64,000 nt of DNA from Chrysomallon squamiferum (lineage: Eukaryota; Mollusca; Gastropoda; Neomphalida; Peltospiridae): NCBI GenBank assembly GCA_012295275.1, contig CM022672.1:27485930-27549929 (forward strand). The letters run 5' to 3'. A program made the translations under genes and the position numbers. The notes under the pieces were generated by a model. That model was given only the letters and a program-made list of their open reading frames with translations, was not told the origin of the DNA and ran no database searches. Positions 10,694-63,142 of this stretch are shown here, piece by piece (within the stretch, counting starts at the first letter, position 1; every line of letters starts with the position of its first letter).

Positions 10694-13695
<3,002 letters not shown>

Positions 13696-35700: not shown

Positions 35701-38685
35701 AAATGTTAATGTCAGTTCTAAATAAAATTAATAATGAATAACATTTTTTAAAGTGTATTTTGTTTGAAATAACCCATATTATATTGCATACACTAAAATA
35801 CACAAATTAGTAAACAGTTCATTAAAAATGATTGAAATCTAAACAAAAACGGTATACTGTAAATAAAATGGCTGCTTAGACTTCAAATGTGATGCTTCCA
35901 CCAATTCAAGAAAAAAAATAGTAGATGAAAACATGCTAAGACAGACCAGATATTCTGTTATAACTTAGTACTGTGACTGCTAATGAAGTCAAAATCAGGA
36001 CTGTTCTGAAGATAAGCAAGAACACATGAGAAAGTATTTTTGGTGGGTTTTTAGTATTAATAAATTCTGTAGAAAATGAAAGAAATCAAATGTAAATATT
36101 ATAAATATTTCTCATAGATTAACATGGAAAAAATGCTTCAAATTTCAAAATAGGCAGAGAGTATATGAACTGAAATACAGAATAGAGAATTCTTATTCTA
36201 TTACTTTTTATTTTACAATTTTTTTTTAGATATTGAGGCAATATGCTCATAGTACTAATTTAAGAATATATCTTGGCACTATACTATATATAATCGGGGA
36301 AAAAAGAAAAAAGAGAAAAACTATTACTTTTTGCATCCTGTAATAGTATTCTTATCCTTAAAATACTTTGCTTATTTTAAAAATATATGGAAACTATCGT
36401 TATTTATTCATGTAGTGGTTTAAGACCTATGATGAAATTTGTACTTTTTGATTTACAAGCAGCATTGACCTTACTGGTTTTGTATTACATTTGTATTTCT
36501 TACATCACTAACACTATCCATTTTAAGTTTAAATTGGTTATTATTTTTCCAGGTATGTCTGGAAGAGAACATATGAATGTGGAATATATAAAAGTCTGAT
36601 TTCCTAATTTTAATAATTTCAACTTCCATTTTGATAAATTGTCCCCAGTACATACTGGTACTTTTTAAAAATATCACTAACATTGAAATATTTAAAGTGT
36701 GTATGAAAATTCAAGAAACTGTTATTAATTTCTTCATTGATTATTAGTCATTTTGCGTTTGTGTATGTGTATGGTATGTACCTAAATGAAAATAAAATGT
36801 GCATCTTAAATATTTTAAGTCTGTCTTAAATGTTTGTTTTAGTGATTTATTTAATTTATTTATTTATTTATTTATTTATTATATTTTTTTAAAAGTAAGG
36901 AATTTCCTCAGAAGGTTAAGGTTAATTCTGTTAAAGGTGAACCATTTCAATATTTTTTTTAAGTTTCATTTTGTTTATTATTTTCAGGGTTCTTCAATTC
37001 TTGGAAGTGACCCAGAACTAGCAGGAAAATTCCCTACTGTTTTAGTTGACAAAGATGGTCTGTTAGAAGCGGAAAGAAGAGCTGTTTTCAGTCGTGATCC
37101 ACCAAGTGCTTTGCTCAACCTTGTCATAGACCTTGTGTTCACTCCAGTGGAGTTGGCTAATTCAACAGGACTGGGGATCAAACCACGGAGAAGTGGAGCA
37201 GATCCCAACAAGCAGCCCCTTGATCCTGTCAAAGTGGACGCCATTAAAGGTTTGTTTCTTACTTGTTTTCCTCCATGACAGTCAGATTTATCACACCAAT
37301 GCCATCTGGTTTATTTATGCATTTACAAGGATTTAAAAAAATAAAAATAATTAATAATAAATAAATAATAATAATAATAATTAAATGAAGATGTTAAATA
37401 AATACAAAAAATATAAATGTGAATCAACATTAAATACACTTTTCCTGACATAATATATCCTTTAAAAATTTATTTGGATTAATTTTTGAGAAAGATATAG
37501 TAATCCAATATTTTAGTCCAGCCAGACATACATTAATAAGAGTAGCCACATTTATGTAAGTGCAGATGTACAACATATTTGGGTTTTTTTATTTTTTATT
37601 ACAAATGTAGTTGGTGTCAGAGATTTTTAAACAAATGTTTTAACTAAAATAACACTGTATTAATTTATTGGGTAAATGATACAGTGATAACTAGTTTCAG
37701 TCATTTCACTGTAATTTATTATTAATTTAATTTATTTATTTATTGAAATGAGAAAGAAGAAAACAATTATATTAATATCTGTGGGTCTGCAAGTTTAGTT
37801 TAATTTTAAAAATGCATTGGTCTAGTTCATAAGAAGTTACTGCAAAATTTACAAATAAATAATACTACTTACATTATTGTGAGGATTTTAGAATATTTTT
37901 ATTTTTATATTTTTTTCATTTTTTTTTTATTTTGGCTTAGCTTGACAGTAAGAATTTTATTACTTAAATTGTTCAGTCATTATTTGCATTTTTAAAATAA
38001 CTTATTAATAATAACTAGTCCTTTATTAATGATGTTAAAGTACCATAACTAAATAAGTGACAAATGATAAAATTTAAAAAGGAATCTGCACTTGAAATGA
38101 CACATTGATAATGCTTGAAAATTTGTTAAGAATGCTACAAGTAAAACGTTTATTTTTGGCTTCTTTTTTCCTTTTTGTATATATATTTAAGAAGTTAAAT
38201 TTGCATATGATAGTTTTCATGAATTAAGTAATTAAGAAACAGAATGATTCAAATAAAATGCAGTGTAGAAATGCCTCTAGTCATATTTCTAAATGGTTAA
38301 ATTAAGTAATTTATTTGCACTGATCAGCATAATAAATGGATGAAACCTTTGGACATTCATCAATTAGATTGTTTGTATAAAATTTGGCTGATTAATTCAT
38401 TGTTAGTCAGATTTTCACTGGTTTACTTTAAGATAAAACAATGCAAAGAGGTTATGAACATTTTAAATGTATTTTTAAAAAATAATTATTAACAATTACA
38501 CTCAAAAAATTAAGAAAATAAATCAAAGTTTTAAAATTTCAAGTGTCATAAGATGACAGTTTTACTTTGTGATTATGTGAGGCTGAAGGTTAGGAAAAAA
38601 AAAAGTATTCTAATTAATATTTAATATCCTGCCAGTTATAAAAATCCACTTACATGAAGACTTCTTAAATTTTTATTTATTTAAT

Positions 38686-38717
<32 letters not shown>

Positions 38718-38749
38718 TATATATATATATATAAAAAAAAAAAAAAAAA

Positions 38750-38797
<48 letters not shown>

Positions 38798-41700: not shown

Positions 41701-44700
41701 TGATTGCATCCAGGTTTGATATAGGATAATTTTTCCTTAAGAAAATATATATTTAGCCAGTTACACCTTATTTTAAATTTTTCATTCATATTATAGTGAT
41801 AGTATGTTCCACATGATTTGAATTATCATGACTGTTAGACATAGTATCATTTTTTAAGTAGTGGCTAAAGATTTTGTTTAATGCCTGTGATGGAAATACA
41901 AAAAGAATGAAAACATTCAAATTTAGCAAGTCCTTCCTCATTACATAGCAAATGTTTTGCATATAATAATCCTTTTTCAAAAAGAAATACCATGGATAAG
42001 AAGGAGGTTATTGATAGTGTAGTTTGAATAAATTATCTGTACAGGATTTCAGCTGCAAGAAAAGATGTTTATACACTAATTACATTGTCTGCTCGAACAC
42101 AATTTTGTCAGTCTCTTGTCTCTTACACCAAGAATAATTTGAAAATAAGGGAACATGTTTGAAGATTCAGTAAACTATCTACTTCACCTCTTCTGACAGT
42201 TATATTTCACTGGATCAGTTGAATCATCAGTACTGTAGTTTTATTTCAGTGAATATTCAGCTGTGTAGATTTGGTGTCTGGTAACACTGATACCTGTTTA
42301 AAACTGTAATATGTATCATATTTCATTTTGGTTTGTCTTGTAGAATTCCATCACACTGAGAGCAATGATAATATTCAGAATTCTGTTTGTTCTTATGATA
42401 ATACGGATAGTATGAATTGTAATACAAGTTCTACGTCAAAATAACATGTTTGTCATTGGTTCCAAGTGAATTGCTGTAAGTTAATAAAACAAACATGACT
42501 AAAGTGAAAGAAATATTAATTTTAAAAAAAGCTGGAACGTTAATAAGCAAGCTGCTGGCAAAATTTACAACAGCAAATACTAAATCTTTTCTGATGATTA
42601 AGAAGATTGTAACATTTTACTGTTTCTTTACTAAATGAAAAATGTATATTAGTCACTTTTGTAATATTACTCCAGTGAACATTTGTCTTTGCCTTGACAC
42701 AGTCAGCCATGAACTGAAGGTTCCTGTTTTTAAAATTAGAATGTTCACAGCTGAAGTTATCTGATGATAATTTTTGTGTATTAAATTTTATTTCTGAGAT
42801 TAGCTCAAATTAATGAAAATGTTTTGATTATGTAGGTGGCACTATGTTTTGATCAGGCCTACAAGTGATTATGTGAAAGAACTTTACAGTGTAATTGCCC
42901 ATGATGTTTATATTTGCCTCAAATGTATATGTTTGTAACCTTTTTTCTATTATAATGTAGCATTTCTTTTCAGCAGTTCAATAGCTTTATATTCTGAAGT
43001 GATTAATACCATTACTCTTCAAATACACTTCTTAATATTAATAAGTGTAATTAGACAAAATAAATTGAAATGCATACGTATACATGTATGCACATGCACA
43101 TCAGCCAATTCATTTTCATCTCATCTATTCACATTTCTGGGCTTGAACACATTCACATTTGTCATTTAATTCAATATTTCTTTACTATAGCCATTTGTAA
43201 TATTGTACTACTAATAAAATAATGTTGACCAAAAATACAAATTAGTTTAAACAGACAAAATGATTATATTCTTATTATGTTTCTTTATTTTGTTGATATC
43301 TTATTTTTATGTGTTTTTATTGGAGAGGGGTTTGAGAATCTTGTACAAATACCTGAAAAAAAATAATAACTGGAGGGAACTTGCGTGTCTGTATTTTGTC
43401 AAAATCAGTGTTTCACCACTGGTAATTCTGATGGTGGTAATTATGACACTGTTTGATTTATTTGTTCATGCTGCTCTTCTTGTTGGTGATAACTGCAAGG
43501 TTCTTTATTAATTTTGTTCAAAGAAAATGGTATCAGTGGCTTTGGTGGATTATTTAGTAATCTATAATGCTTTGGAAACACTGAAGGCATGGATTAACAT
43601 ATTAGATAATCTATGATGAATTATTATTATTATGTCATCTTGATTATTTAAAAAAAAAAAAAAAATGTTGAATCCATCAGTCTGTGGGGATAAAGTTGTC
43701 TTAAGACTTTGTGTTTCTATAACATATAGTTTGTGTGTGAATAATTGTTAAACAGAACACACACATACAAAAATGAAAATTAATATCTTTGTTAATTAGA
43801 TGTAAGAAAAGACTAACAATATTTATTTTCATACTGAGAAAATATTGTAAAAGCTGTTTGAACCTAATTGTTTTGCATCTTCTTCCTTGGTGTACCTAAA
43901 TGGAATTACAGGAGGCAAAAAAACCCAACAACAACAACAATAACAATAATTAAATAATAAATAAAACCATATATGATTGTTTTTAATAACATGCTATATC
44001 TGGCTATTTATCTCAGAACGATTTACAGAACTTTACTGTTTCATATAATACATGTATAGAAATACGAGTATTTAGATATCAATATCTTTCAATAATACTA
44101 TCTAGATTAATGTTGTTATCCCTTGGTTGATTATTTATTTTGTTTATTTATTTATTTATTTATTTTTATTTTTATTTTTATTTTTTCTATTTTTTGTTTT
44201 AAATTAATGTTTAATAGTCATCATGTCCTGTGAAATCATGGTAACATTAAATGAATGCTGTGAAATGCTGACTGTGTTAATTGCATGTAATTTATTACTT
44301 GATTAAAACTTCTTTGAGTTGTTAGATAAATTAGGGAGGGAATTTAAAAAAAAAATAAAACAGTATTTCATCCTGATATCCCCCAAAAACATATTTGTGA
44401 ATTTCAGTCTTTGGATTAAATTATTTAAAAAAACAACAACAAAAAACCATAACTAAAATGAGCTGGTTGTAAATTTAATATTGAAAACAAATGTTGGCAA
44501 ACTGCGTCAGTATTACAGTAGACCTTGTTTGTTTCAGATTATATCGAGACTGTGGTCTTTAAAAAGAGGTGGAATCAGCTGTCAAGATATGACTTTGCCA
44601 GAAAGTTCCTCTGCAAAAGTGGATATGCTCGTCTTAAACAAGGAACTTCAAAGAAACGAAAAAAAATATTTTAACATAAGGAATCTAAAAATAATTATTT

Positions 44701-47700
44701 TAAAAAGTAATGTTGTTTTGAAATGAGGTACAATAAATATATTGGATATTGATTGTTTCACAGAATAAATTTAATTATAGACTGTCACTGGATTTCAAAA
44801 ATATCATATGCTGAAGAAGTATTGAAATTAGTGTTTTGATCCAGCTTTGGTGTTTGATTGTTGATGAAGTATTTCAGTATTATCAGTGAATATCATTTTG
44901 CTAATTAAAATCTGTAGTTGATTTTTAATCTCTTTTCTTTATTATTAACCCATCATGTTGACACAGCTGATTCTGTGACAAAGTCATTAAAATATGTTAG
45001 TCAAACATGTATCAAAACAATGGTTTTTAAAAATCACCTGATATTTTGACTTTTGGGGGTTTTGTTGTTGTTGTTGTTGTTGTTGTTGTGAGGTGTTTGT
45101 CTTTGTTTTTTGTTTTTTTTACCAATTGTCAAATTTGGTGACCGAAAGGATAATACAGCATATAACCAAAACATGTTTGCTGTTGAAGGTTCTTGATTTT
45201 TAATACAGTAACATCATTTATAGGGTCCATAAATGTGACAGGTCACAGTTTATGTAAAATTTGAGAAGACAAACAGCCTGATAAAACCAGTATTGTTTTT
45301 ATCTGCATTACATAGTTGTAAAAGGAAGACATTAAAAACCTATAATATCTTTTAATAAGAAAAACCCAAAGATAATAATGCACATTACACAAGTAATGTA
45401 CTAGCATATCAACTGAACATAAAATATATTAATAGCTAATATTGTAACATCATTTCAATTTTTGATCCTTTCAAGACAATCTAAGCACATAAACACACAC
45501 ACACATACATATAAAGATAATTATTGTTCAGTCCCCCAAAAAGAACAAATAAAATAAAATAAAATAAATAAATAAAATTAAGAAAGAAAGAAAAAAAAGA
45601 TTTTTTAATAAACAAAATACATTTTAAAGGATTAATATAAAATATATTTGATTAGAAATGAATTATATTTAGTATTATACAGTAAAATTCGACTGTATAT
45701 ATATATATATAAAATATAAACAACCGAATAGCAATATACATATATACTACTATGATTTCCAGAAGTTCTTATGTATTAAATTATCAAAGGAAATAGTCTT
45801 TATTAGTTTAGCATCTTGAATATTGCAATAAACAGCTTTAGAATTATCTCAGTGTAAAATACCATCGATAAATAAAATTAATAATAATATTTATTCCTCT
45901 CTGTAATCAAATTTTTCCTGGTAAAGCATTTACTGACTTTTTTGTTGTAATTTCAAGGTTGTAGTTAAAATATTACTCAGTATTATAATTTGTTTCAGAT
46001 TATATCAGGGCTGTGGCCTCTAAACTTGAATGGCACATATTATCCAAGTCTGAATTTGCGAAAAAGTTCTTCAACAAACGTGCTTATGCTCGACAAAAAC
46101 AAGGATTTCCAACTCAGAAGCGAGTACAGATAACATGAGTATGGGTAGAAAGCAGTTTGTCACTAGTACTTTGTAGTTCGTTGAAAAGACAGAAGCAGCA
46201 TGCTGCCTTAATGTGCCATACTTTTACCAAGAAAAACAAAATATACATTTATAATATAAATTAAAAAAGAAGATATTTTAGAAATGTCTCTAATACGTTT
46301 GTTACTTAATCACTGTGTTAAAAACACTGGACACGAGTATTATTAAGGAAACTGTTATTGTGTGAATATACAAATTATATGTTGTTGCTTTTGGTTTTGG
46401 AATCATTGTTAGAATGTGCTTCCTGTTATTGTTCTGCTGTTGGCAAATTTACAAAAATACAATTCTCACTGGTTCTGGTGAGAGATGACAAGACAGTTTG
46501 AAAATTTAATCTATTAATAAACTTTTATTTTTTATTATTATTTTTTTTTTAAATTTAATTTAACTTTTTATTTTATAAGTTACATTATTTTTAAACTGTT
46601 TAATCTGATGTAAAATAGTTTTAAACGCTATTTTTTTAATTATTACAGTTTTATTGTCAAAACATATATAATAATTAATATATCTATCTGACAGTCATTA
46701 TGTAGTGTTCATCTACTGTAAATGGTTGTTTTCTAACTATTGACTTTGTTATTCCATGTGCGTTTATCCAAGGCTGAACAAGTTAGTGTTACAAGAGCAA
46801 CACTTCATATTTCTCATATTAAAAATACCTGTCACAAATCATATAACAGAGAGCATTCATGGTTTAGAGCATTCCTGACTTTGTTTCTGATCATACTATT
46901 TTCTGCACTATTTTCAACATTGTTATTCAGAGCAGACTATCACTCTGTGGTATTTTGCAAATTTAATGAGGTGTTGAATCTTTGTTTTTGTATTTTTTCA
47001 TATTCCTTTTTCAGTGTTGTTTTTTGAATTATTTGTTTCCATAGGATGAAATATGTTTGGCTTTAATGCTTTCTTTGAATGGAAGGAACATAGTTTTATT
47101 TTAATTTTAATTTTTTTTCAAGTTCAGACTATTATTTCTGTGATTTCTCAAAATCTGAACTAACCTCTTGCATTATTTCCTATTCAAAAATCTAAGTTAG
47201 CGGTTATCGTAACAAGGAAGAAAATGGTTAATTCTAATTTTTGAAAATATCTGTTATATCATATCTGCTTGTAGTTACAGTGTTAGCAGAATTGTAAGGT
47301 TTAGTTTTTAGATAATTACTCAGCATGGAGATTAAATTCTAAACACAGATGAAATAATGCCAAAGATTAAAACAGGAAATTTTACAATTTATTTCAGATT
47401 TTGTGAACTTGGTGATCGATATCAAAGGATGGCAGCACTTGCTACCTACTGATTTTTCAAGAAAGTTGATCAACAAACGTGCCTACGCTCGTATTAAACA
47501 AGGGCTCCAAACATTCAGCATAGGAATGGACATAAAAAATCTGTCTTTTTCTTGATATTTGATTTCTTTTTATTACTATATTTGTTAAAAGATTTTTAAA
47601 AAATCATAAATCTTTCATTATGAGAACTTTATTATTTGTTGGTGTTAATTTGAAATTTGACATTTTTTTCAAAAACTTATTTTGGATTTTATGGGTTTTT

Positions 47701-49485
47701 GGGGGGTTTTTGTTTTTGTTTTAATGAATCGAAATGTATGTGTCTGAAACTTACAACCTTAATGTTTGTTGATGGATATTGTTTGTTTATTTGTTTGATT
47801 TTAAAAAACCAAAGAAGTAAACTGTTTACTTGAAACCAATTTTTAGTTCAACATTTTTCTATCAGATAGTCTTGAATGTGAAGAAAACTCATTATAAGCT
47901 CTGATTTACTGTTAGTGGCAAGATCAAGAATAAAAATCACAAAGTGAAGTGGTTAAATGTTACTGTTTAAGTGAAAACATTTTCTTTTTCTACATGATGG
48001 ATGGTCTGCTTGAGATGTGGTGGGTCACTAGATCAGTTGCTCTTGATACCATTCACAACTAGTTAAACATTCTAACATTAACTGTATTATATACCATCCT
48101 GCTGTGAGATGGCACATATAAACAAGTGTTTGCTGTTTATCAGGAAGGTGTCCTTAAACAAGTCTGATATTGTATAACCATAATTACAGTGTGTTGTGTT
48201 TCATCTTCCTTTTTTCCATCTTGTCAAAGATGAATGTACTCTGTGAGATTCTTGTTATTGTTTTGTTAAAATGGTTTCTCTGGTTTGACACTGCACACCT
48301 TCATATTTGAAAATAAAAAATCTCCAAGTACTATATCTTCATCTAAAAGGCAAATAAAGAAAGGTTACTTGAACAGATGATCACCATCCAAAACTTTCCT
48401 CTGAGAGAGATCGTGTGAGATTTAAAGTATTTATTTTCATGAACCAAAGACATTTTATAGTAGAATTAAAAATTACAGTTATGTTCAGTTATTAGATATT
48501 TTAATGTGCAGATACATACATTTAAAGAAAATAAAATCTATATTTTGTTTCTTGTTTTAAAACTTTTGTTTTATTTATACTGTTGTTATTTTTATATAAA
48601 TATGCAAGGAGTGTTATCAAATGGTTCATTATCCTATCTTTATCAAAAGTGTTAGTGTAGTGCAAAAGTTCCAGTTTTGCCAGTTATCAAGCATTTAAAA
48701 TATTATTAACCAGTAGCTGTCCACATGTACTTCATCAGTATAAAAATAATTGCAATAATTATGGTCTTGTAAAACAGAATTCCACATACACTGCAAACAA
48801 CAGAACTATTTTATTATACTGAGACTGTCAGATAAACCTGGACACCAATAGAATCACAAAACTGTTAACTATGCAACAATGCACCAAAATAATTACCAAA
48901 AAATATTACACACTTTACTGTAACGGTTTAAAGTTTTTATAATGGAATACATGTACAGTGACAATTAAGTAAAAATATCTTCTGGTAATTAAACATTCAT
49001 TTAGAAAAGAAATATTAAAATTCATTTAATTTAGTAAAAGTATAGCTCATTTTGTCACAATGCTGTTTAAAACCCCACTTCTTTACAGATTATTATTCAA
49101 GAGTGTGTCATTTGAAAACATGGAGGACATTAGACAGAAAAGAACTTATGAAGAAGTTTTACAACAAATGCACTTCTGCAAAGCAATCTCTGCTTCTTCT
49201 TGTGTAGCTGACTTGTGGACAAAAGAATTTTAAAAAAAAAAAAATGCATACAGAGAGCCTTTCATTTTGTTTTTACTCTGTTCATGGCTGAGATACATTT
49301 CAGAATTTCAAAAACATTCTTACAGGAAGGTGGAATAAAAGAAATTTAAAACGTCGGACAATTATGTTTGTTCCGGGTTGAATTTAAAAAAATAAGAAAA
49401 AAAAAAAAAAAGACATTTTAGATATTTGTTAACATATTGCTTATCCTATTGGTCATGAATTTTTGGTTTCACCAGTTTGATAATA

Positions 49486-49531
<46 letters not shown>

Positions 49532-52500: not shown

Positions 52501-55500
52501 AAACTGTGTTTATTTTACCCATTTGATAGTGTAATGATACAAAGTGCATTCAATACAGAATTTTGTTACCAACTAATCCTCTACATATGGTGCAAGACTG
52601 TTTTTAAGTTTAAATTGTGATTATCAGAGAAACCCCACCCCCCAAAACCAACAAATATTTCAAAACAGTTGTGCTGAGGAAATGTCAAGATGACATCTTC
52701 AAAAATAATAACCAAGTTTTAATTGCAAGATGACTTGTGGTTGGTAATATCTTTTAATGCATTATGTTTCCATAGCAGGTTAAAAATTTGACACAATGTG
52801 CTTTCAGAATTTCTTTCATTAAATTATGAATCAGAAAAAGGAGATGAGATTATTGCCTGTTTCTCTGGAGGCTGTAACTGATGTGATGTAATTTGTTTTC
52901 AGATTTCCTTGAATTGGTGAGCTTGAAGGAACAGTGGCAGCAAATGACTCGCAAACTATTTATTAGAAAGTTTATTAACAAAAGTGCAAAATCTAGACTG
53001 AAGCAAAAAACACGACTCTTAAAACTGGTAATGACAAATATACAGTGAATTCACCAAACACTGTCATCTGTATCTATATTTAATCAAGTATTCTGACTGT
53101 TAAACTTCTCAAGATTGATGTAATTATGTCACTCATATAATCAAAAAGATTTAGAAATGATAATTTTGTCACAGAAATAGAATTTGTAGTTAATGATACT
53201 TTATAAATATTAAAAGCAATTTATTTTTTATTTTTCAAATTTAATAGTATTATTTATTTATTTTATTTTATTATTATTACTATTATTATTTTTTTTATTT
53301 TTTTTATGCTTGTAAGAAAAGTAGAAACCTAATTTTTCTAGGTTGAAAATATATTTTTAAAATGATATTATGGAACAGCAGCTGAAAGCTCTTATTCTTG
53401 TGGAGGAGAAGGAAAAAAAAACTTTTGATTCTTTTTAAACTTAAAGCATAATCATATAATAATATGACACAATTAATCTCTGTAAATATCTACCAGTATA
53501 CATAACATTTTCTGGGTTTTATTTAATTTTATTATTATTAATATTCTTTTAATTATTTTAATTTTTATTTAATTAATTTTTTTATTCTATTTTATAGATT
53601 TTATCAGGATTAATAATAGTGTTATTATTAAATTACATTTGTTTAAATAGCAAAGCTGCTTTTCAAATACTATAATGGTTTTCTTTCAGAATTCATCAAA
53701 TGTGTGAATAGTAAGAATGGATGGCAGCCTATGAGTTTCCAACATTTTCTGCGGAAAGTCATAAACAAATGTACTTATTCTAGAACGAAGACAAAACGAT
53801 GTGAATTCTTTGGATCACAAAGAGTTCACAAAAGGCAGACAACTAGCTCATTTGAAAGAGACACCAAATATGGATCCCCTTTTGATGAACAACAAGATTA
53901 AATATTACAAAAAATAAACAGTCTAACTGTTGTTGCATATTATTAAATCTGTGATGCAGAAAATAAAATTACTTGAATACTAATCAAAATGAGTTGGAAA
54001 TGATAATGTTGTGACAGTAATAGAATTTATAGTCTATATGATACTTTCAGAATGTTATGTGGCAGTTGGTACAATTTATGTGGCATTAAAACTTATTAAT
54101 GGATTTTTTCACAGAAATCTTTTTCATCTTTAGGGTTCAGTCTTGTGTTTTATGAAAAGGTTATTGGTTTTCTGGAATTTCCTTTTTGTGATGATCTGTA
54201 GCATGCATTATATAGAGCCATATGTAATATCATTTCTACAATATATGCATATGTATATACAAACAAGCACACTTTCACAGAAACAAATAAATGTAAAATT
54301 AATGTATTATCTTGTTAATTTTGATATAACTATAGCTTTTGTGTATTTAATTAAATATTATTTAGTTCACTTTTTCATTAGACTTTTGTACCTTTCAAAG
54401 GTTTTATTAGTTTCAGCTTTTGAAAATCCAGTGAAATTAGAAATGTTTGTGTTCTGCATTTATTTGTTTGTTGATAACATTCCTCTCTGATGATTAAATT
54501 TATCTGAAAACAAATTTTGATTTTGTGTGATATGTTAAACCAGTGGGGCCAATGAAAGTGCACACAGTAAATTTAAAAAAAATAAAATAAATTAAAAAAT
54601 TAAAATAATAATAAATAAAATGACAGTGATAGTTTGTGATGCAGAATAAAAATGGGTTGTTGTGTGTATGATTTAGAACTGATAAATTAGAATGCTATGT
54701 GAGTGTATGTGTTAAATACTTACAATGAACATTCCTACTGTACAGGAAGACTTAATATTCTTAGCAGTAGACATATCTTTATAATTACAGGCTATAAAGA
54801 ATGGCTCATCATAACTTGTTTTGTTTTTTCTACTTTTTTTTTATATTTGTAATATTTTTATTTATTTCTGTTGGAATGAAGTGGATTTAAATTTTTTATT
54901 TTTTTTCAAATTTATTTTACTGTTTTTATTTATATTTGAATATATTTATGAGAACACTCATCAAAAACAGCTGGAAATGATAATTCTGTTACAACAACAG
55001 GACTTATAGTGTATGTGTGTGTATATATATATATATAAAAAAACTAAAGTTGTTAGAACTTGTAATTCATTTAACCACAATCATTATTCATTAACACGTT
55101 AATAGTAATCTTGACTGCTTTAAAATCTTGATTTATGGTTGCCTTAGAAAATGTTCTAGAAATGCTGTTTCAAAACAGGAAAACGGATCCCTGTTTGTGA
55201 GGAAATGTTTAGTATTGTTTGGGGTTTCTTGGTCTAAAAAACATGTATTCTCTTGTGTGATTTCTTCAGAGTGCATGCTGTTAATCCCAATCTGTGAGGA
55301 AATGTTTAGTATAATGTATGTTGTTTGCTCTGTTTTCTTGTGAATGTATGTGTCTAAAATGCATTATTTAGAGCAAAAATTAATTTAAAGAAAGAAAATG
55401 AATGTTTAGCAGTCGAATACAAAAATTGATAATGACTATTAATAATGTGGTTTTGATTTTCAGGTTTCCTGGTATTCTCCTGTGCCAAGAAAGGATGGAT

Positions 55501-58500
55501 AGATGTTCATCATAAAATATTTGTCAAGAAATTCATAGACAAATGCAAATATGCAAGGAATAAACTTGCTAAATCCTATCACACTTCTGATGACAGCAGA
55601 TTGCCTGTTAAATGTGTGCACAGGACTTATTGGATGCCCATGTAACAACTTCAGAGGGCATAGTTGATGCAAGACTGTCTGGATATACACATAACCTCTT
55701 CAAAAAGAATAGTAATATACAAAAGAAAGAGTAATCAACTAATTCAAAATTTTATGTTGAACTTGAGTAGAAAAAAAACTTGGACATCTCTATATGTGTT
55801 GGTTTTAAAGATGAAAAGATTTCTTAACTAGAAGAAAATAATAAATCTGACATGTTTTGAACTATCAGTTTTGTTTGCAACACCATTCTACAAACACTGA
55901 AAAACTAGCTGAATGAAATGATTACTTGTTTATGATAGAAAAATGTAAAGAATGGCACAAAAATAACAGATTTAAAAAAAAAATTCTTAACAATACTATT
56001 TGTGTAAAACTGTTGAGAAAGTTATTATAAAATATTAGGTTTCTTTGATCTACACTGTAATTGTAGGTCTTTATTAAGGCTTTTTAAACTGAAGATTTAG
56101 TTTGTCTATTTGTGACTGCAGTTGTTTGCTGTATTTGTTTATATGTGGCTGTTTTTGAATTGATCTTTATAGCAATCATTCAATCAGTCTTAGGTACAGA
56201 ATACAGAAGACACCGTGCAGGTTCATAAGTGAGAATTCTATTTGAAATATTTGCAGTCACACTGCAAATAACACCAAATAGTCCCAGTTATGCAAATAGC
56301 ATGTTGATCTTGTCACTTTATGTAATGCTTGGTGATTATAACTCGTTATTATTTCAGATTTATTGATATATGTCACACTTTTTATATGAACAGTTATTAC
56401 GTTTTACTCATTTGTTTGTGTGTGTATAATGATGATGATATGACAAAGACAATCTTTCAGTAAACTCTTTGTATGGCATTGGCTTATGATGATGTTTATA
56501 GTAAACTATTTGTAGGGCGTTGTCTAACAGTGTTCTTTATAATAACTCTTTGTAGGGCATTGTCTAATTGTCTTCTTTATATTAAACTATTTGCACTTGT
56601 TACTGGTGTAACAATAATAAATTATTTGTATGGCATTGGCTAATGGTGATGTTTATAATAAATTATTTGTGTGGCACTTGTTACTGGTGTTCTTTATGAT
56701 AAACTATTTGTATGGCACTTGTTCCTGGTATTCTTTATAATAAACTGTGGCATTGGCTAATGGTGTTCTTTATAATAAACTGTGTGGCACTTGTTACTGG
56801 TGTTCTTTATGATAAACTATTTGTGTGGCATTGGCTAATGGTATTCTTTATGATAAACTATTTGTGTGGCACTTGTTACTGGTGTTCTTTATGATAAACT
56901 ATTTGTGTGGCACTTGTTACTGGTGTTCTTTATGATAAACTATTTGTGTGGCATTGGCTAATGTTCTTTATGATAAACTATTTGTGTGGCATTGGCTAAT
57001 GGTGTTTATAATAAACTATTTGTGTGGCACTTGTTCCTGGTGTTCTTTATGATAAACTATTTGTATGGCATTTGTTCCTGGTATTCTTTATAATAAACTG
57101 TGTGGCATTGGCTAATGGTGTTTATAATAAACTATTTGTGTGGCACTTGTTCCTGGTGTTCTTTATGATAAACTATTTGTATGGCATTTGTTCCTGGTAT
57201 TCTTTATAATAAACTGTGTGGCATTGGCTAATGGTGTTTATAATAAACTATTTGTGTGGCACTTGTTCCTGGTGTTCTTTATGATAAACTATTTGTATGG
57301 CATTTGTTCCTGGTATTCTTTATAATAATCTGTGTGGCATTGGCTAATGGTGTTTATAATGAACTATTTGTGTGGCACTTGTTCCTGGTGTTCTTTATAA
57401 TAAACTATTTGTGTGGCACTTGTTACTGGTATTCTTTATAATAAACTATTTGTGTGGCACTTGTTCCTGGTGTTCTTTATGATAAACTATTTGTGTGGCA
57501 TTGGCTAATGTTCTTTATAATAAGCTATTTGTGTGGCACTTGTTACTGGTGTTCTTTATAATGAACTATTTGTGTGGCATTGGCTAATATTCTTTATAAT
57601 GAACTATTTGTGTGGCACTTGTTCCTGGTGTTCTTTATGATAAACTATTTGTGTGGCATTGGCTAATGGTGTTTATAATAAACTATTTGTATGGCACTTG
57701 TTACTGGTGTTCTTTATAATGAACTATTTGTGTGGCACTTGTTCCTGGTGTTCTTTATAATAAACTATTTATGTGGCATTGGCTAATGGTGTTCTTTATA
57801 ATAAACTATTTGTGTGGCACTTGTTACTGGTGTTCTTTATAATAAACTATTTATGTGGCATTGGCTAATGGTGTTCTTTATAATAAACTATTTGTGTGGC
57901 ACTTGTTCCTGGTGTTCTTTATAATAAACTATTTATGTGGCATTGGCTAATGGTGTTCTTTATAATAAACTGTGTGGCATTGGCTAATGATGTTTATAAT
58001 AAACTATTTGTGTGGCACTTGTTACTGGTGTTCTTTATGATAAACTATTTGTGTGGCATTGGCTAATGGTGTTCTTTATAATAAACTGTGTGGCACTTGT
58101 TACTGGTGTTCTTTATGATAAACTATTTGTGTGGCATTGGCTAATGGTGTTCTTTATAATAAACTATTTGTGTGGCATTGGCTAATATTCTTTATAATAA
58201 ACTATTTGCAAGGCACTTGTTACTGGTGTTCTTTATAATAAACTATTTGTGTGGCATTTGTTACTGGTATTCTTTATAATAAACTATTTGTGTGGCATTG
58301 GCTAATGGTTTCTTTATAATAAACTATTTGTGTGGCATTGGCTAATGTTCTTTATAATAAACTATTTGTGTGGCACTTGTTCCTGGTGTTCTTTATGATA
58401 AACTATTTGTGTGGCATTGGCTAATGTTCTTTATAATAAACTATTTGTGTGGCACTTGTTCCTGGTGTTCTTTATGATAAACTATTTGTATGGCACTTGT

Positions 58501-61500
58501 TACTGGTGTTCTTTACAATAAACTATATGTGTGGCACTTGTTACTGGTGTTCTTTATGATAAACTATTTGTGTGGCATTGGCTAATATTCTTTATAATAA
58601 ACTATTTGTGTGGCACTTGTTCCTGGTGTTCTTTATAATAAACTATTTGTGTGGCACTTGTTCCTGGTGTTCTTTATAATAAACTATTTGTAGGGCATTG
58701 GCTAATGGTGTTCTTTATAATAAGCTATTTGTTGCTTATGGTTAATTATTTGTATTCAAAATCAAATTTTGGTTTAAGGATAGCTGTGACATGTATATAT
58801 TGAGAAAACAACAACAAAAAAGAAATTATCTGAAATTCTGTAATTCACAGTAGTGGATTGAATATTACAATCATTTGTTAAGTGATTTCTACTAATTTGT
58901 ATGCATTTGATTCAGGTTTTGCCTCTTTCTTTTGTTGTTAAAGATGATCATAAAAATTAAAGTCGTTGCATTTTGGTGGCATTTTTGTTTAAATTTTATT
59001 TATCTGTTTATTTGTTTTATTTTTATTTTATTATTATTATTTTTTTAAATAGTTGGCTCTGATTAAATACATTGTAGATGTTAAAAACTGAATCAGAACA
59101 TTTAGCAATATATATTTAAATGTTTCTACAAGTAGACATTTTGCTTTGCAGCGTACTTCAAATCTGTTTGCAGGAGATGTGGTTGGAATGACATCTGTCC
59201 AAAACTGGTGCCTAAGAAATTACAAGCCAAAATGACTAACTCACGGAGGAAATACTGTAACCAGTGATTTATTCCGAGGAAACTTCATCAGTTTGAAAAT
59301 CAGGAATAAGACATCTGTGGCATTCTAAAAGAAAAATATCTTCTGAAAAACAATTAATGCCATATCATTTGTCTTATTGTGTTAAATTGCATTTACTGGA
59401 GGCTCTTAAAAATAATGTAAAATAATTAAAAATATAATTTTGCTAGCTGACATCTTCTGAAGTTTATTAAAGGTGTGTGGATAATCTCAGTGATAAGTTT
59501 AAGATGTAGGACTGAAAATTTGTTTCTCTTCCTTGTAAATGATCAGAAGATTGGATTTTAGTGCGAGCTGATTTGTATACAGTTACTAATCCTTTCAGTG
59601 AATAATTATAAATAGCTCCCAGCCAAATCAACAAGACTAGTTAATTCACTAGTACTTGCACTGCACACATTAGGGGTGAGTCCACTTCTTACAGCATAAT
59701 GATAAAAAAATAAAAAATTCAAGTTGCTGGATAAATCTGCTTTCTGCAGTAAATGTAATTCTGAGAGGATATACCTGCTTATCACAAGGAAAGGGTCAGT
59801 GTTAATTATTTAAATAGCAATGTTCAAGGATAAAGCTAAAATGTTTTAGTATTTGCAACTGATAATGAGAGTTTAGTGTTATTTTGTGTGTCCTTGTATG
59901 TTTACTAATTGGATAATAATATGTATGATAAATGTAAACATTTACATTTTTTGTTTTATTGTTTTGTTTTAGTTCAGTTCTGGTTTGCAGATCTAAATAC
60001 TGAATGATGTATGTGACACAGTGTTGTGACAGTAGTAGTGATTGTTTTAAGCTTTTGAAAGGATCTTCATGTTTTATTGGGATGTGAAATACCAGAAAAA
60101 GGGGAAAAGGTTGTTGTAATTTTAAGTAAAGCTTCTTAAATATAATAAGTGAGTAATAAATAAAAAAAGAAATTTAAAAAAAATTTAAAATATCTTTTTA
60201 AAAATTAGTTATTATTCTTTTTTTATTTTTTTTATTTTTAGCTTTATTTTTATTATTCTTTTTTTTTTTGGTAAAACTTCAGTAACATTTTATTTTCAGT
60301 TTTTTGTCAAACATTTTCAGTATTTTGAAGTCTGAATTGTGGATGTAAAAAGTCTAAATGTATTGACGAACCATTTACATGATATGATAAATATATTTTT
60401 GTATATTTTAATAGGAATTTGTTGTTTAATTTACAAGTTTCAGAAAGACACTTATGGAAGATTAATTTGGTAGCAAATTAGTTATTTTCAGTAAATAAAT
60501 AAATAAATAAATAATAATTTACCATCATTATTCTTCATTAATGCTGAACAAATTTCCACACATCAACTATTTTTCACCTATCAATCCATATCTATCCAGC
60601 CATTGTTTGCCACATATTTTACTAAAGACGTATTCTTCTTAGAACATTCAAAAATATCCAGACACCAACTTGACTGAAGTTGTTTTGCTTTGCAGACTTC
60701 TTCCATTCTGCATGCAAGACAAAAGGATGGACAGACATGGACTCAAGACAGGTGCATAAGAAATTTCAGGACAAAATCACAAATACTCGGAGGAAGTATG
60801 CTATTCAGAATGACACTCAGCAGTTTGACTAAAGTATATTTTCTTTTCTCTTCTCTGTGAAATGAATATAAAGAAATGCTGCAGTATTTTCTTAATAAGA
60901 AATTAGGAATGTAATGTAATGTGAAATTTAAAAAGAGCTGTTAATGCCATTCTGCATATTATAATTAAATTTTGGGTAGATTATTACAGGATGTGTTAAA
61001 TTATTATATGGATGTTATCATTTTTCAATACTAAATCTATCATTTTCAGTGTAACATTTGTCACCACCATGGTCTGTTATTTTGACTGTTACAGAATTTG
61101 TCAGTACTCCAGATCTATCATTTTGACTGAATTACAACATTTGTCACCACATAAAAAGTTAAATCATTTTGACTATATTGGTCACCATTGGTATGTTTCA
61201 TTTTGACTGTTGCAGCTTAACCTCAGTAGCTTAATATATACCAATCAAGTTGGCCACTAACAATATTAAAATTAAAAATTCCTTTAATTTAAACATGTTA
61301 ATGTAATTAGGATACAGACTTTTCTGAAAAGAATATAGTCACAAAAATTTACGTTGACTACAATTCATGAAAAGTCCTGTTAGTCATTTTTGAGGCTGTT
61401 ATTTAATGAGCATTCTAAACTGAAGAAGAAAATGTGTTTGAGAAGCTTCTGGTAATAATTGTGAAAGCATGTAAATTCATATCAGTGTGTGTATATAACT

Positions 61501-63142
61501 ATTATACATATGTTTATTTTCATTATTCACCAGTTAATTCACAAGTAGTTGAATTTGGTTGTTGAGAACAGTAATGGGCGATTATTTTTTGTTGGTTTAA
61601 TATTAATTTGCAAGATGGACGCTTGATGAAGAAAGGAAGACACTGAATGAAAGTTTATCTTTTAAAATGTATTTTCATTTATATACGTTTTTGTTTTATG
61701 CTTCTTTCACACCATTTTTTATTGAATATTGTTTTGTTTTTTACTTCATAAGTGGACATTTGAAATAAACTGAAATGTTTATCAACTTTACCTTTTGTTT
61801 TGTTATATAATTCAGATGCTCTGTTTAATTTCTGGTTTCTAAACACGCCCTCAAAAAATTGTAGAAAATGACCAGAATCCCAAACAAATAAAACAGTCTC
61901 TTCCAAAGCTTGTATTCTTTTTAATTTCTGATTTGTAAACACCCACCACAAAAACAAAAAACAAAAAAAATAAATAAATAAAACAATTCTAATAATAATA
62001 ATAAAAATAGTAATAATAATAACAATAATAATAATAACAATGATGATGATGATAAATGAATAAATATAATGAACAAAACCCCCAAACAAATAAAACAGGA
62101 TTTATCTTCCAAAGTTTGTCAGTGATGTATCATTTATGTGTTACATATAAAAAATCTTTAGCAGCTAAATGATAAATATAACCTACAGAATTAATATTGT
62201 ACAAAAACAACATGTCTGACACCTAATAAATGTGTTGATAAAAATGACATTCTTGTTCATTATTTAAATTTCCTTTTTCTTTTTTCTTTCCATTTTTCTT
62301 TCTTTTCTTTTCTTTTTCTTATTTTTTGGTTTCTGTATTTAATTTGTTAGGATTATAATTATTCTGACTTTGTGATGAAATATTCAGATATTACTTTACA
62401 GAAATAACTGAGAAAAGATTTTAAAATATTTATTTGTAATAACAAAAAGAAACTCTTTGACTTCCACTCAAACAACTCATCCTTAAAGAATCCTACAACT
62501 AATGGATTATTTTAAATAAAATTCTTAGTGTTTTTTTGTGTCGCTTATTTATTTGTTTATGTTTAATAATGAATGGTTTTATCTAGAATTGAGAACTTAA
62601 TGATGAATTATTTTTATTATGTCTATCTTAACTTGAGTTATCCCAGTATTCCTTGAAGTTTATTTGATTTACTTTTTTTACAAGTCTCTAAAAAACAGCT
62701 ACCTATAAATTCAATTATTTTTATTTTGTCTCTACATAAACTAGAATTATACCCAGCATACCTTGAAGTTTATTTGACTTAAATGAGTCTGTAGATAATA
62801 ATCAGTATAAAATCAAATGGGATAATGGATGGATGAAATAAAAATTGGACTGTAGTGAATTTAGTTCTATAAATATTTTTAATAAGTAACAACACACACA
62901 GTTATATAATTTCCAGAGAAAATATCTGGGTTTTTTAATATCATCATCACCAGGTGTTAAGTGTGCATCTGTTATTTTTTGTTTCAGCCTTTCTGAAGGA
63001 AGTAACCGTGCAGACGAAGTGGACTTTATTGAATCCAAGACAAATCATAAAGAAATTCCAAGATAAAGTGACAAACACACGCAAGAAACTGATTATGTCA
63101 GGATACCCTCTGCTCGACAGTTCTTCACTGTCTTCTAGCTAG
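20934..63142 (+). CDS. psq/BEN alternative-terminal-exon locus (whole gene; continues as isoforms)
   Basis: One transcription unit appears to share the exons 20911-21531 and 21906-22273 and then choose among DNA-binding ends. Option A is one of four psq-type terminal exons (26913-27134, 28931-29161, 31989-32183, 34326-34529), all entered in phase 0. Option B is the exon 36988-37249, also entered in phase 0, which encodes the first BEN segment. It must then be joined to one of twelve phase-1 terminal exons from 42344 to 63142. Products would be about 386-400 residues (psq) or about 447-480 residues (BEN). The exon architecture and phases are directly visible; joining in one transcript is inferred. 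Proteins of both domain types act as nuclear DNA-binding regulators, so a family of transcription regulators with different DNA specificities is the expected role. Confidence 0.8.
21906..22273 (+). CDS. Common exon 2: acidic linker with SUMO-type motifs and GGY repeat
   Basis: It enters in phase 1 after TTTCATTTACAG and leaves in phase 0 at AAG|GTATTT. It encodes residues 200-322 of all isoforms. Residues 244-259 hold VKEE, a sumoylation consensus, then five aspartates and ITLIE, an acidic-flanked SUMO-interaction pattern. Three 7-residue repeats SGGYxGD follow (22118-22180, exact 21-bp units). No folded domain is evident; it looks like a flexible linker to the alternative DNA-binding ends. 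Confidence 0.85.
22118..22180 (+). repeat. Coding 21-bp tandem repeat (SGGYxGD x3)
   Basis: Three 21-bp units (22118-22138, 22139-22159, 22160-22180) differ by only a couple of bases and encode SGGYTGD, SGGYAGD and SGGYTGD. Such units may vary in copy number between individuals. Confidence 0.9.
22274..26912 (+). other. Intron between common exons and first psq terminal exon
   Basis: About 4.6 kb of AT-rich DNA. I found no further psq, BEN or common-region exon here. It contains an AT dinucleotide run near 22611-22627 and A-rich microsatellites near 23740-23850 and 26683-26719. Confidence 0.6.
26913..27134 (+). CDS. psq terminal exon 1
   Basis: This phase-0 exon after TTTGTTTAG encodes 73 residues and a stop. 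It carries a pipsqueak-type helix-turn-helix: YTQSAFKEAMHSV, then GMSLRKAAKLYNIP, then HQTLWNHVSGKHKK. The pattern [helix]-x-G-x-S-x-R-x-A-A-x-x-Y-x-[IV]-P-x-x-T-L matches the HTH_psq family, which binds DNA through this motif. An AATAAA at 27330-27335 can end the transcript. It is closest to psq exon 2 (both share IPHQTL and a GK-x-KK end). Confidence 0.9.
   Translation, partial: TQRMKTYTQSAFKEAMHSVLQEGMSLRKAAKLYNIPHQTLWNHVSGKHKKYRDEIQALQFYGAPNPLAREMKP
27135..28930 (+). other. 3' UTR of psq exon 1 and intron
   Basis: Non-coding. It contains a (TTTTG) short run near 27210, the poly(A) signal at 27330 and a poly-A tract at 28317-28339. No further exon was recognised. Confidence 0.55.
28931..29161 (+). 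CDS. psq terminal exon 2
   Basis: This phase-0 exon after CTCTACCTAG encodes 76 residues and a stop. The helix-turn-helix reads YTQSAFNEALRSV, GISIRKAGRMYNIP, HQTLHDHIRGKRKK. It resembles psq exon 1 but changes several residues in the recognition-helix region (HDHIRGK against WNHVSGK), so a different DNA preference is plausible. The tail is short and unlike the other psq tails. The first clear AATAAA is distant (29700-29705). Confidence 0.9.
   Translation, partial: AHPKKAYTQSAFNEALRSVTECGISIRKAGRMYNIPHQTLHDHIRGKRKKQREEVPLSMVPEQRCSYESKDVHVAE
29162..31988 (+). other. 3' UTR of psq exon 2 and intron
   Basis: Non-coding AT-rich sequence with T-rich runs near 29860-29930. It includes the possible degraded repeat reported separately near 30530. 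No exon seen. Confidence 0.55.
30530..31180. mobile_element. Possible degraded MITE-like element
   Basis: The segment starting CAGTCATACCTCAGTTCTTC, with TTAATCCATTCCTGATCCCCC shortly after, resembles a terminal motif (TACCTCGGTT...TTCC...CCCC) that I recall from invertebrate interspersed repeats. Local composition is also less AT-rich than the flanks. No second terminus, target-site duplication or transposase is visible, so this is a weak call. Confidence 0.25.
31989..32183 (+). CDS. psq terminal exon 3
   Basis: This phase-0 exon after TTCTATATAG encodes 64 residues and a stop. The helix-turn-helix reads YSQLDLSAALKAI, GMSLRKAGTIYNIP, FQTLHFHVKRNR. With psq exon 4 it forms a second subfamily, marked by PTRKR or TPRKR before the motif and TLHFH[VI]KRNR at its end. 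An AATAAA overlaps the stop codon (32179-32184) and another lies at 32394-32399. Confidence 0.9.
   Translation, partial: ACGIQPTRKRMQYSQLDLSAALKAIMDEGMSLRKAGTIYNIPFQTLHFHVKRNRESQVLKKMLQ
32184..34325 (+). other. 3' UTR of psq exon 3 and intron
   Basis: AT-rich non-coding DNA with poly(A) signals near 32394. No further exon seen. Confidence 0.55.
34326..34529 (+). CDS. psq terminal exon 4
   Basis: This phase-0 exon after TCTATACTTAG encodes 67 residues and a stop. The helix-turn-helix reads YSQMDLNAALKSV, GMSLRKAGTTYNVP, FSTLHFHIKRNR, close to psq exon 3, and ends in a Lys-rich tail. An AATAAA at 34915-34920 can serve as poly(A) signal. Similarity to exon 3 at both protein and DNA level suggests tandem exon duplication. 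Confidence 0.9.
   Translation, partial: AQEFYTPRKRLQYSQMDLNAALKSVEENGMSLRKAGTTYNVPFSTLHFHIKRNRKTDKGKIKQVEDT
34530..36987 (+). other. 3' UTR of psq exon 4 and intron
   Basis: Non-coding. It has a poly-T run at 34707-34731 and a TTTA microsatellite near 36850-36890 shortly before the BEN exon acceptor. Confidence 0.55.
36988..37249 (+). CDS. BEN-domain first-segment exon (constant)
   Basis: This phase-0 exon after TTATTTTCAG encodes 87 residues plus one base. It reads as the first two thirds of a BEN domain: LLEAERRAVFSRDPP, LLNLVIDLVFTPVELANSTG, then LDPVKVDAIK, where known BEN domains have L...LF..EEL..SN..G...LD..K...I. The domain is incomplete, lacking the last helices with the usual INxKC-like motif. 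The donor AAAG|GTTTGT in phase 1 sends the transcript to the terminal exons beginning at 42344. Retaining the intron would stop the protein about ten codons later (stop at 37276-37278). It is the only exon of its kind in the window, so every BEN isoform should use it. Confidence 0.9.
37250..42343 (+). other. Long intron before BEN terminal exons
   Basis: About 5 kb of extremely AT-rich sequence with A-tracts, TA repeats (38690-38830) and ATTT microsatellites (41540-41583). No BEN-type terminal exon was recognised in it. Confidence 0.6.
38690..38830. repeat. Poly-A and (TA)n compound microsatellite
   Basis: A run of A, a short (TA)n block, another run of A, then a long (TA)n block. The second TA block (about 38753-38792) is self-complementary and could form a cruciform. 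Confidence 0.9.
42344..42444 (+). CDS. BEN terminal exon 1 (atypical tail)
   Basis: The acceptor TTTGTCTTGTAG is followed by a phase-1 frame of 33 residues and a stop (EFHHTESNDN...SSTSK). The length and phase fit the series, but the tail is Asn/Ser-rich, has no Trp and lacks the basic INKxxYAR end. If used, it would give a BEN isoform without the last helices, perhaps unable to bind DNA. It could also be a chance splice-site-plus-frame. Confidence 0.4.
44538..44674 (+). CDS. BEN terminal exon 2
   Basis: This phase-1 exon after TTTGTTTCAG gives a 45-residue tail. It completes the BEN domain with DYIETVVFKKRWNQL, RYDFARKFLCKSGYARLKQG and a Lys-rich end. The Trp at tail position 12 and the basic ...YAR motif are shared through the series. 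An AATAAA lies 58 bases after the stop (44732-44737). It is closest to exon 3. Confidence 0.88.
45999..46138 (+). CDS. BEN terminal exon 3
   Basis: This phase-1 exon after TTTGTTTCAG gives a 46-residue tail: DYIRAVASKLEWHIL, SEFAKKFFNKRAYARQKQG, then a basic end. The first 30 bases and the acceptor are very similar to those of exon 2, so the two are likely recent duplicates. An AATAAA follows only at about 46514. Confidence 0.9.
47398..47555 (+). CDS. BEN terminal exon 4
   Basis: This phase-1 exon after ATTTATTTCAG gives a 52-residue tail: DFVNLVIDIKGWQHL, DFSRKLINKRAYARIKQG, then an extension without obvious features. It has the full Trp, RK-x-INK-x-AYAR pattern of the core series. Confidence 0.9.
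49089..49207 (+). CDS. BEN terminal exon 5
   Basis: This phase-1 exon after TTCTTTACAG gives a 39-residue tail: DYYSRVCHLKTWRTL, RKELMKKFYNKCTSAKQ, then a Leu-rich end. The YAR motif is altered to TSAKQ, so the tip of the last helix differs from its siblings. It is one of the shortest of the core type. Confidence 0.85.
49528..49888. repeat. Two-copy direct repeat, about 77 bp each
   Basis: Copies at about 49528-49606 and 49811-49888 share CTTCACACCAAA, GGGCATTTAGTTACCCACAG and AACATGTAACATTCATTCAA, with only small differences. A (TA)n run (49487-49529) sits directly before the first copy. Confidence 0.88.
50512..50642 (+). CDS. BEN terminal exon 6
   Basis: This phase-1 exon after GATTTATTTCAG gives a 43-residue tail: EYIESVCAIKGLETL, RFNRKVIDKCAYARRAV. 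The usual Trp is replaced by Leu, while the RKVIDKCAYAR motif is intact. Confidence 0.87.
52903..53048 (+). CDS. BEN terminal exon 7
   Basis: This phase-1 exon after TTTGTTTTCAG gives a 48-residue tail: DFLELVSLKEQWQQM, FIRKFINKSAKSRLKQK. The YAR tyrosine is replaced by Lys and the end is strongly basic. Its 3' flank (from 53150) shares a block with the flank of exon 8. Confidence 0.88.
53690..53901 (+). CDS. BEN terminal exon 8 (longest tail)
   Basis: This phase-1 exon after TTTTCTTTCAG gives a 70-residue tail: EFIKCVNSKNGWQPM, HFLRKVINKCTYSRTK, then about 30 extra residues rich in Arg, Lys, Ser and Thr. An AATAAA lies just after the stop (53913-53918). Confidence 0.9.
55464..55645 (+). CDS. 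BEN terminal exon 9
   Basis: This phase-1 exon after TTGATTTTCAG gives a 60-residue tail: GFLVFSCAKKGWIDV, KIFVKKFIDKCKYARNKL, then a His/Cys-containing extension. It begins with Gly where others have Asp, Glu or Ala. It is the last core-type exon before the minisatellite. Confidence 0.88.
56456..58740 (+). repeat. 2.3-kb minisatellite of about 41-bp units
   Basis: More than 50 units alternate between two forms. Form A has GGCACTTGTTCCTGG or GGCACTTGTTACTGG; form B has GGCATTGGCTAATGG. All share TTTATAATAAACTATTTGTG or its TTTATGATAAAC variant. Some units are shortened. Near 57024-57371 a 116-bp higher-order unit is repeated about three times almost unchanged. Its short open frames are artefacts of the repeat. 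It lies between BEN terminal exons 9 and 10. Confidence 0.97.
59152..59267 (+). CDS. BEN terminal exon 10
   Basis: This phase-1 exon after TTTGCTTTGCAG gives a 38-residue tail: AYFKSVCRRCGWNDI, LVPKKLQAKMTNSRRKY. With exons 11 and 12 it forms a second subtype in which the core INKxxYAR is replaced by a [KM][IVM]TN[ST]R[RK]K motif. The acceptor is almost identical to that of exon 11. Confidence 0.88.
60696..60832 (+). CDS. BEN terminal exon 11
   Basis: This phase-1 exon after TTTGCTTTGCAG gives a 45-residue tail: DFFHSACKTKGWTDM, QVHKKFQDKITNTRRKYA. It is a second-subtype member with the conserved Trp. Confidence 0.9.
61012..61217. repeat. Imperfect repeats with CATTTTGACTG core
   Basis: TCATTTTGACT recurs with variable spacing, together with ATTTGTCACCAC or GGTCACCA, in four degenerate copies. 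This is non-coding sequence after BEN terminal exon 11. Confidence 0.65.
62988..63142 (+). CDS. BEN terminal exon 12
   Basis: This phase-1 exon after TTTGTTTCAG gives a 51-residue tail: AFLKEVTVQTKWTLL, QIIKKFQDKVTNTRKKL, then a Ser/Leu-rich end. It is a second-subtype member. It is the last exon found; more may follow beyond 64000. Confidence 0.9.

Follow-up and report, generated by a model that had tools for sequence, protein, structure and literature searches.

How can a gene make use of an exon that breaks off in the middle of a DNA-binding domain? A first-pass annotation of a 64-kb stretch of the Chrysomallon squamiferum genome (contig CM022672.1; hereafter the window, in whose coordinates all positions are given) had proposed that one exon encodes the first part of a BEN domain, stops mid-domain in phase 1, and serves an array of eleven downstream exons, each completing the domain in the same phase with a stop codon of its own. 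We asked whether this array is real, to which gene it belongs, and what a choice among its ends would change in the protein.

The exon borders proposed for the array turned out to be exact. The BEN half exon (36988-37249, plus strand) is preceded by ...ttttcag, stays open in one frame for 87 aa plus one base, and ends at the donor AAAG/gtttgt. The eleven ends follow on the same strand at 44538-44674, 45999-46138, 47398-47555, 49089-49207, 50512-50642, 52903-53048, 53690-53901, 55464-55645, 59152-59267, 60696-60832 and 62988-63142 (below, each is named by its first base); every acceptor lies at its predicted base and, read with a leading G, each exon opens a frame of 38-70 aa closed by its own stop. 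The pattern that had been described for them, an aromatic start and usually a tryptophan near position 12, is there too: all eleven have an aromatic residue at position 2 and ten have Trp at position 12 (Leu in 50512). Lys is present at positions 23 and 27, and Arg or Lys at position 32, in the complete set, and 49089 has Lys in place of an otherwise constant Arg. Around these fixed points the ends are very different from each other, with a mean pairwise identity of 31% over the first 37 aa (range 19-51%). Ends 55464 and 59152 are separated by a minisatellite at 56461-58732 (2.3 kb, a 41/82-bp unit, about 57 copies of 41), the probable cause of the strand-skewed composition of that region.

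To assess the coherence of the array we left out one end at a time and used a profile made from the remaining ten to search the 2382 ORFs of the window (stop-to-stop, 18 aa or longer, either strand). The missing end was recovered in 11/11 trials, with E values from 1.2e-7 to 1.7e-13, and the best match outside the array had an E of 0.19. A DNA profile of the eleven ends, which could also detect broken copies, found none on either strand of the 64 kb: beyond its eleven source ends nothing scored below E 3.2. Synonymous differences per site exceeded nonsynonymous ones in 55/55 pairs of ends, a comparison limited by the non-independence of the pairs and by near saturation of the synonymous sites (mean 0.77). 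As a sequence observation, the exon series is solid.

The locus is larger than had been proposed: the BEN array was described correctly, and the constant N-terminal exons and four further terminal exons upstream of it had been missed. The gene extends on the plus strand from 20911 to at least 63142. Two constant coding exons lie upstream, set by their splice sites and frame and matched in tblastn by proteins of another vent snail, Gigantopelta aegis. The first (20911-21531, ATG at 20934) encodes an N-terminal domain of about 75 aa and part of a linker; the second (21906-22273) continues the linker, contains an acidic stretch and ends at a phase-0 donor (...GEKVELFK/gtattt). A 21-bp tandem repeat at 22117-22181, within this linker exon, encodes SGGYTGD-like repeats that are absent from the G. 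aegis isoforms examined. Further downstream lie four terminal exons that encode pipsqueak-type (psq) helix-turn-helix (HTH) ends, all with a phase-0 acceptor and a stop of their own. The first (26913-27134) and the second (28931-29161) scored 51.5 and 42 bits against HTH_psq (PF05225, cut-off 20.4 bits), and were the two psq exons scanned; the third (31989-32183) and fourth (34326-34529) were identified solely by a profile of these two (E 6e-16 and 5e-16, respectively).

Splice phases tie these parts together. The phase-0 donor at 22273 fits the four psq exons and the BEN half exon, which also has a phase-0 acceptor, and the phase-1 donor at 37249 fits all eleven BEN ends. The simplest reading is that one constant start would take either a psq end (one of four) or the BEN half, which in turn would take one of eleven BEN ends: a choice in two steps that gives 15 possible products (4 psq and 11 BEN) from the ends found in the window. 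A candidate short exon near 42345 was rejected, having no Pfam match and no match among 48 fetched proteins. On the minus strand, two exon-like open frames (12300-12797 and 12906-13490) gave no Pfam family above cut-off and perhaps belong to another gene.

The constant N-terminal domain is conserved but resembles no described family in Pfam or the PDB. It had no PDB match at E 10 and no credible Pfam match (best E 0.03, to unrelated families), and the 322-aa constant region as a whole gave no Pfam family at E 1. A relation to BTB was considered and rejected: none of 11 N-termini of the family matched BTB, and the Pfam search was empty. A structure prediction gave helices only, with a mean pLDDT of 50.7. 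By analogy with the position of BTB in mod(mdg4), our guess is that this domain would mediate association between proteins.

A protein search with one conceptual product revealed an orthologue in G. aegis, LOC121383032. It has the same constant start and BEN half, together with at least seven BEN ends and two psq ends; the G. aegis locus is an automatic annotation named 'uncharacterized protein', and a word search of the main text of the G. aegis genome paper for 'BEN domain', 'splic' and 'isoform' gave no match. Its isoforms, numbered up to X14, are NCBI gene predictions, nine of them readable (X3, X5, X6, X7, X8 and X11-X14), and the first 314 aa of these nine are exactly identical. Seven (X3, X5, X6, X7, X8, X11 and X12) have one start and the BEN half and differ only in their end, as expected from the earlier proposal that one BEN start serves alternative ends, which had called for a search of related genomes; the other two (X13 and X14) carry different psq ends. 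Alternative use of the ends is thus well supported by the annotation of the orthologue, and we infer that the exons would be spliced alternatively in C. squamiferum too.

Between the two species the constant parts are nearly frozen (77/78 residues identical in the N-terminal 78 aa, 85/87 in the BEN half), the linker is identical at 163/229 aligned residues, and the ends have diverged: counterparts in G. aegis were found for six BEN ends and two psq ends, with 46-87% identity. For the psq ends, the first matches X13 (60% over 73 aa) and the fourth the end of X14 (77% over 53 aa), and the best readable matches of the second and third are again X13 (52% over 60 aa) and X14 (67% over 52 aa). In the BEN array, 44538 pairs with X8 (81% over 42 aa), 47398 with X11 (87% over 38 aa), 49089 with X12 (54% over 35 aa) and 59152 with X6 (62% over 34 aa). 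These four pairs are the ones found in a tree of the BEN ends, built from just 40 columns and with long branches, where 4/16 inner branches are well supported, each joining one window end and one G. aegis end. End 60696 matches X7 (54% over 39 aa). The match of 62988 to X3 (46% over 50 aa) is not firm: X3 is as close to 60696 (18/37) as to 62988 (17/37), so that it is the tail and the BLAST score that favour this pairing. The end of X5 has no partner within the 64-kb window, and its counterpart exon may be located beyond it. In all eight readable G. aegis BEN products (seven of this gene, one of a paralogue) the residue after the junction is V or D, that is, a residue with a G-codon, in agreement with what the split codon requires.

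For five BEN ends (45999, 50512, 52903, 53690 and 55464) the readable G. aegis isoforms offer no clear partner. When the 48 fetched proteins were compared back to the window they matched every exon described here except 55464, which was also without a match in the protein comparison, and they pointed to no additional exon. One could suspect from these five ends, from the missing Trp of 50512 and from the Lys that 49089 has for an otherwise constant Arg, that few ends are in use and the remainder are duplicates heading for loss. We find this quite unlikely. The stops and frameshifts that such decay would bring are not seen: all eleven ends are intact and the 64 kb contain no decayed copy. The duplications also look old, given a mean identity of just 31%, and more G. 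aegis isoforms are hidden, since the protein collection is clustered at 90% identity.

Whether the joined exons truly make a BEN domain deserves scrutiny, for single-sequence matches are close to the threshold. Three of the eleven joined products were scanned with Pfam BEN (PF10523, cut-off 23.2 bits) and scored 25.1, 22.7 and 18.8 bits, the product of 60696 being the one that passes. From G. aegis, P0004 scored below the cut-off (19.0 bits) and the paralogue P0010 scored 34.0; the precomputed Pfam annotation lists no BEN domain for the seven readable BEN isoforms. A profile of the eleven joined products together with P0010 matched solved BEN domains, namely NACC1 (E 4e-5) and BEND3 (E 0.002). 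BEN domains fold into five helices, the C-terminal one serving recognition; a structural model of G. aegis X8 shows helices but is weak (mean pLDDT 42; best PDB match BEND3 BEN4, E 0.5), and in it a helix at residues 418-435 (local pLDDT 60-76) lies wholly within the variable part, 402-443.

The position of the splice joint acquires its meaning from the contacts of NACC1 with DNA, as described in excerpts of PMC11472053. There, the C-terminal helix alpha5 enters the major groove, with D462, T465 and R469 contacting bases and N466, R468 and R472 the backbone; G419, I420, S423 and R429 of the alpha3-alpha4 loop hold the backbone and R421 of the same loop touches a base in the minor groove. The same excerpts present alpha5 as the main base-reading element in both NACC1 and BANP. 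The first-pass annotation had stated that the C-terminal helix of BEN domains contacts DNA, and the structures of NACC1 and BANP bear this out, though in NACC1 a further base contact comes from R421, whose loop belongs to the constant part of the snail protein. In the profile alignment, with residues numbered by hand, the loop falls in the constant exon, where R421, S423 and R429 of NACC1 are matched by R, S and K; the counterparts of R400 and R401 are not kept, other residues standing there. The model and the alignment thus suggest that the variable exon covers the remainder of alpha4 and all of the predicted alpha5, while the constant exon would contain the loop for backbone and minor groove. 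There are good grounds to suppose that it is the helix that is exchanged.

The alpha5 pattern of NACC1 (D-x-x-T-N-x-R-R) can be followed through the ends by its spacing. Three of them carry A/D, T, N, R and R/K in this spacing, as A..TN.RR in 59152, D..TN.RR in 60696 and D..TN.RK in 62988; the other eight differ from NACC1 in at least two of the five places, and the column of the backbone-contacting Arg468 holds R or K in 11/11 ends. This register is inferred from motif spacing, as the printed NACC1 alignment ends before alpha5, its ungapped continuation would be five residues off, and a BEND3 alignment spanning the alpha5 region did not display the motif. With this register, the three base-reading columns agree in 37/165 cells among the window ends and in 16/18 between species counterparts, and the rest of alpha5 in 262/605 and 50/66, respectively, the counterpart values coming from six pairs that include the uncertain 62988-X3. 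Between counterparts, conservation is higher in the five contact columns than in all other columns (27/30 vs 110/192, Fisher p 4e-4); for the base-reading columns, the difference from the remainder of alpha5 is not significant (p 0.34). These data support, without proving, the idea that each end would have its own specificity and that this specificity is maintained.

An alternative is that the ends are real alternative exons that alter protein contacts, stability or localisation instead of the choice of DNA sequence. The tails differ as well, in ends of 38-70 aa in all, and 2/3 of the joined products scanned fall below the Pfam BEN cut-off; in mod(mdg4), the variable C-terminal regions interact specifically with different proteins (excerpts of PMC5666082). 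Yet all eleven ends retain the pattern and its two invariant lysines, the mapped contact columns are conserved between species in 27/30 cells, and alpha5 is the chief base reader in NACC1 and BANP (PMC11472053, in part). We regard this alternative as unlikely.

The explanation that we prefer, and consider likely, is that one gene for a transcription or chromatin factor makes a family of proteins through the choice of the last exon, and that in BEN products the chosen end sets most of the bases read. The constant N-terminal domain and acidic linker would be spliced directly to one of the four psq-HTH terminal exons or, alternatively, to the BEN half exon, from which splicing would continue to one of eleven terminal exons, each able to finish the BEN fold. 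The scaffold would come from the BEN half, as would the loop that holds the backbone and the minor groove of the DNA; the remainder of alpha4 would come with the chosen end, together with alpha5, the recognition helix, and for this reason the choice of end would determine most of the sequence read.

The 200 bases before the eleven BEN acceptors showed no intronic selector motif common to them: their most frequent 6-, 7- and 8-mers stayed within the maximum reached by 100 random sets. The BEN-end acceptors are modest when given a simple score for pyrimidines: 3.95-14.8% of the 2985 AGs score as high for ten of them, and 1.7% for 62988. All four psq exons have a TAG acceptor, and the BEN half and all eleven BEN ends have CAG. 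An AATAAA or ATTAAA lies within 400 bases after each of the 15 ends, which carries no information: the window is AT-rich and has, on AATAAA alone, one such motif for every 270 bases.

The gene is laid out like Drosophila mod(mdg4), in which constant 5' exons precede many alternative 3' exons, most of them coding for versions of a single kind of domain (excerpts of PMC4667647 and PMC5666082). In mod(mdg4) the start is a BTB domain, the ends are FLYWCH, and transcripts are joined by trans-splicing, some ends lying on the other strand (same excerpts). Since its mRNAs are made mainly by trans-splicing (PMC5666082, in part) and the constant-plus-variable layout is the same, one might think that the snail ends also come from separate transcripts. 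This we hold to be very improbable: the 15 ends share a strand with the constant exons and are all 3' of them, and neither the ORF search nor the DNA-profile search found a credible end on the minus strand of the 64 kb. With this layout, ordinary cis-splicing would suffice. The snail gene also differs from mod(mdg4) in having no BTB domain and in placing the joint inside the domain. The mod(mdg4)/lola-type layout of constant 5' and alternative 3' terminal exons is present, in the exon anatomy and in the predicted G. aegis isoforms, and we do not class the gene as a BTB locus of that type because no BTB domain was found in it.

How far does this architecture reach? A search with the BEN region gave G. 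aegis alone: from 299 candidates it retained 8 proteins, namely the seven isoforms plus a single LOC121383526 product, so the BEN array is known from one other species. The N-terminal domain gave 41 proteins among 99 candidates, in G. aegis, Haliotis and two further records; both counts come from protein searches that need shared five-residue words, so that distant relatives could be missed. This domain also heads other G. aegis proteins. Besides the orthologue, the 48 fetched proteins form seven groups with at least two products each, defined by identical first 90 residues and hence sequence groups, not verified genes. LOC121383526, with 8 products, has BEN, psq-like and zinc-finger ends, and the other six groups have zinc-finger or basic ends, as judged by eye or from the Pfam accessions given for them. 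Proteins P0034 and P0043-P0048, which come from Haliotis and from one G. aegis gene (LOC121383525), have the N-terminal domain fused to DUF3504 (PF12012), a combination that may be the older architecture.

Other genes exchange parts of proteins in comparable ways. Drosophila lola, by the title of a paper cited for it, has constant and variable exons. Products of lola and broad have alternative DNA-binding ends, in which entire zinc-finger units are exchanged and not half a fold. In the exon clusters of Dscam1, alternative exons do swap half of a domain while the other half stays fixed; these exons are internal and mutually exclusive and belong to a cell-surface Ig protein, in contrast to the terminal exons of a probable DNA-binding protein found here. 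We know of no array of ends in NACC1. It resembles the snail protein in its related BEN sequence, three of the snail ends having the D/A..TN.R(R/K) helix pattern, and differs in starting with a BTB domain (excerpt of PMC7764960). The new element is the splice joint within the DNA-binding domain. The first-pass annotation knew of no animal locus that varies a BEN domain in this way, and a limited search of the open-licence PMC literature likewise found no description of such a BEN array.

Taken more broadly, we lean towards seeing here a family of gastropod regulators that has a new, conserved N-terminal domain where others have BTB, and in which each gene would obtain many DNA-binding proteins through its 3' exons; in the gene studied here only the recognition helix would be swapped on a fixed BEN scaffold, giving a natural set of interchangeable specificities. 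If this is true, one gene could yield a set of regulators with different targets, and the locus would be the first described, within our limited literature search, in which alternative exons swap no more of a DNA-binding fold than the half with its recognition helix. Eleven natural variants on an identical scaffold are also a ready experiment on how BEN domains choose their DNA. Given the related G. aegis genes, whose ends are of psq, zinc-finger and BEN types, snails may possess their own equivalent of the insect mod(mdg4)/lola system, founded on another N-terminal domain.
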